Assembly: GCA_903836575.1 (NCBI GenBank)
Contig: CAILRJ010000355.1
Span: forward strand, 1 to 46,451
Direction of reading: 5' to 3'
DNA from: an uncultured Burkholderiales bacterium
GTDB lineage: Bacteria > Pseudomonadota > Gammaproteobacteria > Burkholderiales > Burkholderiaceae_D
DNA: 46,451 nt
The notes under the pieces are model-generated. The model saw only the letters and a program-made list of their open reading frames with translations. It ran no database searches and had not been told where the DNA came from. Every line of letters begins with the position of its first letter. The first letter of the stretch is position 1. Position numbers and translations under genes: made by a program. This document shows positions 40,578 to 41,069 of this stretch, one piece after another.

Positions 40578-40653
40578 GGGTGCTTAGCTCAGTTGGTAGA
40601 GCGGCGCCCTTACAAGGCGTAGGTCGGGGGTTCGAGCCCCTCAGCACCCACCA
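40578..40653 (+). tRNA. tRNA-Val (anticodon TAC)
   Basis: gggtgcttagctcagttggtagagcggcgcccttacaaggcgtaggtcgggggttcgagcccctcagcacccacca; cloverleaf, loop cttacaa, encoded CCA. Confidence 0.96.
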
Positions 40654-40737: not shown

Positions 40738-40814
40738 GGAGTGGTAGTTCAGCTGGTTAGAATACCGGCCTGTCACGCCGGGGGTCGCGGGTTCGAGTCC
40801 CGTCCACTCCGCCA
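40738..40814 (+). tRNA. tRNA-Asp (anticodon GTC)
   Basis: ggagtggtagttcagctggttagaataccggcctgtcacgccgggggtcgcgggttcgagtcccgtccactccgcca; loop ctgtcac, encoded CCA. Confidence 0.96.
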
Positions 40815-40984
40815 GAACAATAACGACGAAGTAGTGATTCCATTGGAATCACGTCGGGACTCGAAGGGAATCGCTTGCAAGCGATTCCGCGGCCTGCAGT
40901 ATGTAGGCGAGTCCCGTCCACTCCGCCAGAACAATAACGACGAAGTAGTGATTTCATTGGAGTCACGTCCACTCCGCCGAAACA
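40794..40984 (+). repeat. Direct repeats containing the tRNA-Asp 3' end: copy 1 at 40794-40855, copy 2 at 40908-40969, partial third copy at 40966-40984
   Basis: 62-bp units cgagtcccgtccactccgccagaacaataacgacgaagtagtgatt[c/t]cattgga[a/g]tcacgtc are identical at 60/62 positions; third partial cgtccactccgccgaaaca. Confidence 0.9.
40867..40888. repeat. Perfect 22-bp palindrome between the tRNA-Asp-derived repeats
   Basis: ggaatcgcttgcaagcgattcc equals its own reverse complement. Confidence 0.9.
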
Positions 40985-40990
40985 TCCGAA

Positions 40991-41016
40991 AAGGCGAACG
41001 CGAGTTCGCCTTTTTT
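40991..41016 (+). terminator. Rho-independent terminator downstream of the tRNA-Asp repeat region
   Basis: aaggcgaac-gcga-gttcgcctt followed by TTTT. Confidence 0.85.
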
Positions 41017-41069
41017 CATATGCATCACTGCGATAGAATTGTTCGCAACTTGTCTCTGAATGGTTGATC

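Follow-up and report, generated by a model that had tools for sequence, protein, structure and literature searches.

A new family of structured, tRNA-tailored elements located behind tRNA genes in Burkholderiaceae_D

Behind the tRNA-Asp gene of the DNA analyzed here (the whole stretch of 46,451 nucleotides, hereafter the window), there is a complete copy of a structured element tailored to the tRNA that precedes it, and there is strong evidence that such elements form a new family, absent from Rfam. Each copy contains two pieces matched to its host tRNA: a strand antisense to the T-loop and T-stem, and often also to the acceptor, and a copy of the tRNA 3′ end. We hold with moderate confidence that the element acts as RNA. 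The explanation that we favor, and to which we give about an even chance of being right, is that these elements are structured 3′ trailers of pre-tRNAs, with a plan similar to that of RtT RNA and an alternative pairing to their own tRNA that would affect its maturation or the release of a small RNA.

The element at the tRNA-Asp locus

The gene order at the locus is clpX-lon-tRNA-Val-tRNA-Asp-ppiD, with tRNA-Val at 40578–40653, an arrangement that points to Burkholderiales. The features from tRNA-Asp onwards are summarized in Table 1. The full fold is much more stable than those of shuffled sequences (z = −5.5). A 108-aa open frame at 40741–41067, which overlaps tRNA-Asp and the repeats, is surely spurious.

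Table 1. Location of the element and its surroundings in the window
Feature	Positions	Strand	Basis
Host tRNA-Asp(GTC) gene	40738–40814	+	ARAGORN; Rfam tRNA model, 68.8 bits
T-loop/T-stem 3′ strand of tRNA-Asp, TTCGAGTCCCG	40792–40802	+	Sequence, ARAGORN
Short trailer, without terminator or acceptor antisense	40815–40833	+	Sequence; comparison with relatives
Hairpin H1, GTGATTCCATTGGAATCAC	40834–40852	+	Covarying stem in the 20-sequence alignment; double changes at 8 of 9 pairs
P1 left strand, CGGGACTCGAA	40855–40865	+	Sequence; 11-nt perfect antisense of tRNA-Asp 40792–40802
Hairpin H2, perfect 22-bp palindrome	40867–40888	+	Double changes at 8 of 9 pairs
Hairpin P3, GCCTGCAGTATGTAGGC	40892–40908	+	G-U pair in 20 of 20 aligned sequences
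tRNA-Asp 3′ end copy (T-loop to CCA), P1 right strand	40908–40928	+	Identical to 40794–40814
Second, degenerate unit: trailer and H1′ (40948–40966) joined directly to an acceptor remnant	40929–40978	+	Repeat comparison
Terminator-like hairpin with T-run	40990–41016	+	Directly behind the tRNA at empty sites L013, L014, L016 and L017
Covariance-model match to the whole core	40834–40916	+	94.6 bits, E 5.6e-15

The original prediction started from a direct repeat of 62 nt (40794–40855 and 40908–40969, identical at 60 of 62 positions, with starts 114 nt apart) followed by a partial third copy (40957–40984), and both are present as described. The perfect palindrome reported between the repeats was also found, and it is the hairpin H2 of the element. 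The inverted CGGGACTCG (40855–40863) is equally there, constitutes the first 9 nt of the P1 left strand and pairs with CGAGTCCCG at 40908–40916. The two hairpin variants that had been pointed out are those of H1, i.e., GTGATTCCATTGGAATCAC and, in the second unit, GTGATTTCATTGGAGTCAC, and both differences leave a G-U pair on the tRNA-sense strand. The 62-bp repeat corresponds to a complete element followed by a second unit that equals the first but has lost its core by deletion between two CGTC microhomologies. In the sister species G001 this second unit is missing. The search of relatives that the original prediction had called for placed the element behind the same tRNA in G001 (same genus, one-contig genome) and G002, so that an assembly artifact is ruled out as the source of the repeat. 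The early observation was thus right, but it concerned one copy of a widespread element, and it missed the antisense strand, the other host tRNAs and the family-wide spread. Judged by its sequence, the window copy is reduced: its trailer has neither the terminator nor the acceptor antisense that fuller copies elsewhere contain.

In relatives without the element, tRNA-Asp is directly followed by the terminator GGCGAAC..GTTCGCC and then by ppiD, while at occupied loci the element and the 3′ copy sit between tRNA-Asp and that terminator. The duplicated tRNA 3′ end around the insert, together with the empty sites in relatives, is what an att scar would display. Between the window repeats there is no integrase gene nor phage or island remnant, the segment being the conserved non-coding core. 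The only terminator visible before ppiD stands downstream of the element, which lies therefore inside the predicted pre-tRNA transcript at the window locus. At many other loci a terminator-like T-run occurs between tRNA and element, so that only read-through transcripts would include the element there.

Covarying core and complementarity to the host tRNA

The structure of the element was built from an alignment of 20 distinct units, with relatives' copies located behind tRNA-Asp, tRNA-Glu and tRNA-Ser. It consists of four stems (H1, P1, H2 and P3), with P1 closing a junction. The 5′–3′ order is H1, P1 left strand, H2, a GCG/GCGG junction, P3 and P1 right strand, the latter being the start of the tRNA 3′ copy. 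Standard pairs occupy 95.2% of the pair cells of the alignment, and pairing drops to 31–45% in controls with slid partners. Both-sided compensatory changes occur at 22 of the 33 base pairs, and double changes were observed in 115 cells versus a shuffled mean of 31, counts that in all cases take in inherited changes. The compensatory covariation expected of a functional structured RNA was found, beyond the shuffled and the slid controls. H2, the GCGG junction and P3 are conserved across genera and different host tRNAs. Concerning the strand, G-U pairs exceed A-C pairs in H1 (22 to 8), P1 (74 to 30) and P3 (229 to 2, mostly one invariant G-U), which favors an RNA of the tRNA-sense strand, while the mispairs of H2 lean the opposite way (5 G-U and 17 A-C).

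The P1 left strand, together with an invariant GAA behind it, is the reverse complement of the T-loop and T-stem 3′ strand of the host tRNA. Measured against the last 23 nt of the tRNA, the longest antisense stretch had a median of 10 nt for element-bearing tRNAs versus 5 nt for other tRNAs of the same loci; the latter include 20 high values, most of which come from loci that bear the element but did not belong to the scanned set. At those of positions 0–9 where copy and tRNA disagree, the left strand is complementary to the tRNA 41 times (plus 4 with G-U) and to the copy 0 times (plus 1 with G-U). P1 formed with the copy was accordingly rejected as the whole story of the main conserved helix. 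In 93 cases of a tRNA base substituted within an isoacceptor, the antisense base changes along with it 73 times, retains the majority complement 8 times, forms G-U once and shows neither pattern 11 times. Inherited changes are part of these counts, and the anchor, though nearly fixed, was picked for the best tRNA match.

Two classes of copies differ in this respect. In those reaching CCA, the left strand deviates from the tRNA 168 times versus 37 for the copy, which is mostly identical to the tRNA; given these frequent departures of the left strand, perfect antisense is not maintained throughout. Copies that end after the T-stem have an almost perfect left strand, with 13 deviations versus 53 in the copy. 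The split is that the former tolerate a diverged antisense and the latter keep it perfect. In the fullest copies, found mainly behind tRNA-Ser, an antisense of acceptor and CCA precedes H1, and T-loop, acceptor, CCA, trailer and terminator constitute a single inverted repeat that reaches about 46 bp at most and contains H1 within one of its arms (L137, L138 and L149). A search for the pattern of T-arm and anti-T-arm in 299 genomes across the phylum matched only the window's own genome and one family relative.

Distribution, inheritance and comparison with known systems

Within the window's family, 233 of 394 genomes had a covariance-model match at a threshold of E ≤ 0.001, and as many as 11 matches were listed for a single genome; no copy was detected in the other 161, which indicates that the element is dispensable. 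In an order-level sample of 399 genomes, 17 had matches, and 9 of these genomes belong to other families. When the sample was taken from the class (369 genomes), the sole match was the window's own genome, and none was obtained outside the order. The window's own genome has four copies. At C152 and C329 of this genome (L114 and L115), the element lies behind tRNA-Glu and is preceded by a terminator, and the copy is degenerate in one case.

An upstream tRNA was identified for 190 of the 216 distinct copies examined: Asp (93), Ser(CGA) (28), Glu (20), Ser(GCT) (17), Ser(GGA) (14), Leu(CAG) (10), Arg(CCG) (3), Ser(TGA) (3), Thr(TGT) (1) and a doubtful Gly (1). The remaining copies are mostly at contig ends or correspond to insertions that split tRNA from element. 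In four tRNA-less cases (L175, L086, L226 and L187), the element is directly preceded by a bare tRNA 3′ fragment or by foreign-looking sequence, as if islands or insertion sequences had entered at the tRNA or its terminator. Behind a second tRNA-Asp of G001 (L037, G001:C1:315300–317300), there are five near-identical 177-bp units, each with its own terminator, which suggests homogenization of arrays. In another family of the order, a tRNA-Asp array (L029, in G039) is followed by 9-nt antisense runs without model match, possibly a different element.

Of 60 copies compared, 47 had their nearest relative at the same tRNA in a different genome and 7 at a different tRNA within their own genome. This indicates mostly vertical inheritance and disfavors an active hopping between tRNAs.

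Rfam scans of the window and its relatives yielded nothing above threshold except tRNA, and in the literature RtT and sX4 turned up but no description of the present family. RtT (RF00391; rttR, in the tyrT/tyrV operon of E. coli) resembles the element in that its repeats lie directly behind a tRNA gene and each of them ends in a copy of the tRNA 3′ end; the copying of the preceding tRNA 3′ end in each repeat unit is thus common to both. In the tyrV region of E. coli, with 178-bp repeats, GGGGAAGGAT occurs upstream of each ATCCTTCCCC copy of tRNA-Tyr, with hairpins in between. As GGGGAAGGAT is the complement, the building plan is the same. However, the core sequence and the stem layout differ, and the complement in RtT covers T-stem and acceptor, not the T-loop. 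The RF00391 model (gathering score 45 bits) matched neither the window region nor the scanned relatives, compared to 133.8–137.5 bits for the E. coli control. According to a passage of PMC4986893, which cites Bosl and Kersten (1991), RtT RNA is released from the tRNA operon transcript and is implicated in amino-acid limitation.

The model of sX4 (RF02223, from Xanthomonas) resembles the Ser-associated copies, with a tRNA-Ser, a hairpin trailer and a G-rich strand depicted as paired to the C-run of the tRNA 3′ end, but it lacks the H2/P3 core. L137 aligns to the whole model with 52.7 bits, below the 70-bit gathering score and mostly derived from the tRNA, and no match is listed in the window region at E up to 10. 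The RF02223 model appears to contain a whole tRNA-Ser, so that the sX4 predictions published for other bacteria may be tRNA genes.

Att sites of integrative elements share with the window locus a tRNA 3′ end (T-loop to CCA) duplicated around an insert, although here the insert is a conserved, structured, non-coding element of about 114 bp. To attC-like folded recombination sites, the likeness is limited to hairpin geometry, with no linked integrase. In the case of 3′ETS-leuZ and other tRNA trailer sRNAs, a small RNA is cut from the pre-tRNA trailer, and a small RNA derived from the present element would have the same origin. We know of no trailer sRNA with a strand antisense to the T-arm of its own tRNA.

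Possible role and alternative explanations

The energies predicted for the window were −120.0 kcal/mol for the fold with P1, −117.4 for tRNA and rest folded apart, and −116.7 for the fold with the T-arm invaded, values that leave aside tertiary structure, modification and co-transcriptional order. In the model, pairing with the tRNA and pairing with the own copy are only about 3 kcal/mol apart. In the T-arm-invaded fold, the copy pairs with the T-stem 5′ strand of the tRNA and hence replaces the original 3′ strand. For the Ser and Glu copies, the invaded fold is favored over separate folding by 4–21 kcal/mol, given read-through of the terminator.

We infer a function as folding switch or as processed trailer RNA. 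At the window locus, the element would be transcribed within the pre-tRNA, and the antisense strand would be shared between two partners, the T-arm of its own tRNA and the duplicated 3′ end. If P1 forms, the tRNA would be free to fold normally, while upon invasion of the T-arm by the antisense strand the copy would take over as the T-stem 3′ strand. The maturation of the tRNA, or the release of a small RNA from the trailer, would then depend on folding and processing, as proposed for RtT. The copies would have arisen by rare insertion or duplication, followed mostly by vertical descent at a given tRNA. A broader claim, which we advance only tentatively and consider rather unlikely, is that anti-T-arm trailer and decoy 3′ copy constitute a new class of cis-acting tRNA regulators, in which strand exchange would decide between a functional and a disrupted or rebuilt tRNA, for several isoacceptors and throughout the family.

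Three options were originally offered for the repeats, and the structured RNA trailer is the best supported of them, considering the stems covarying across genera, the wobble bias towards the tRNA-sense strand and the position before the terminator. Tandem duplication accounts for the second unit of the window and for the arrays of five units elsewhere. As for an att scar of a phage or island, the insertion is indeed flanked by a duplicated tRNA 3′ end, typical of att sites, and the orphan copies L086, L175, L187 and L226 lie beside tRNA 3′ fragments resembling boundaries of islands or insertion sequences. However, the idea of a phage or island once integrated in tRNA-Asp and later lost is refuted as an explanation of the core, because the segment between the repeats is the family-conserved element itself and not residual phage DNA. 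No integrase gene adjoins it, the window's version had no phage or plasmid match, and the nearest relatives of the copies are mostly at the same tRNA in other genomes; we regard this scar as the least probable of all the explanations considered. Scarcely more probable is a neutral by-product of template switching during replication at the palindromic tRNA terminator, combined with tandem duplication. It would fit the inverted and direct copies of one tRNA end in a hairpin-rich stretch, and the second unit of the window does resemble slippage or deletion at the CGTC microhomology. But template switching would not yield one and the same core behind Asp, Ser, Glu and Leu tRNAs, nor keep H2, the GCGG junction and P3 across genera and tRNAs with double compensatory changes.

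The main rival to the trailer reading is a slow, non-autonomous mobile DNA element that carries a replacement 3′ half of the tRNA and inserts at tRNA T-arms, which seems to us a possible but clearly minority explanation. Its insertion may involve a single strand folded into hairpins of constant length, like integron attC, the downstream copy being the displaced tRNA end and the RNA structure a by-product. Such an element is consistent with occupied sites that show a duplicated tRNA 3′ end and contrast cleanly with the empty ones, with the use of several host tRNAs in one genome and with the tandem arrays, as well as with hairpins of fixed length and free sequence. The copies with a decayed displaced 3′ end yet intact tRNA-antisense strand, and the single copies in which the trailer behind the copy differs from that behind the tRNA, also point in this direction. 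Against it, the element has no coding sequence, no match was found on viral contigs searched with the general pattern or in plasmid and phage records queried only with the window's version, the nearest relatives are those described above (47 versus 7 of 60), and the antisense strand follows tRNA substitutions in a compensatory manner after insertion. The inverted repeat from T-loop to terminator of L137, L138 and L149, with H1 in one arm, suggests still another role, that of a read-through guard: polymerase passing the terminator would make a long hairpin (up to about 46 bp), cleavable by RNase III, which would dispose of read-through precursors. This is improbable, as the window copy has neither terminator nor acceptor antisense, and the conserved H2/P3 part would be left without a role.

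tRNA genes are usually regarded as simple and their trailers as passive. Over half of the sampled genomes of the family carry, behind one or more tRNA genes, a conserved element absent from Rfam with a strand that tracks the changes of the tRNA. If the element acts at the DNA level, it would be a new kind of tRNA-targeting element. If it acts at the RNA level, it suggests a self-directed control of tRNA maturation and would provide a comparative framework for the poorly understood RtT RNA. As the complementarity indicates, the antisense strand, by pairing with the tail of the neighboring tRNA, may influence how that tRNA is made.
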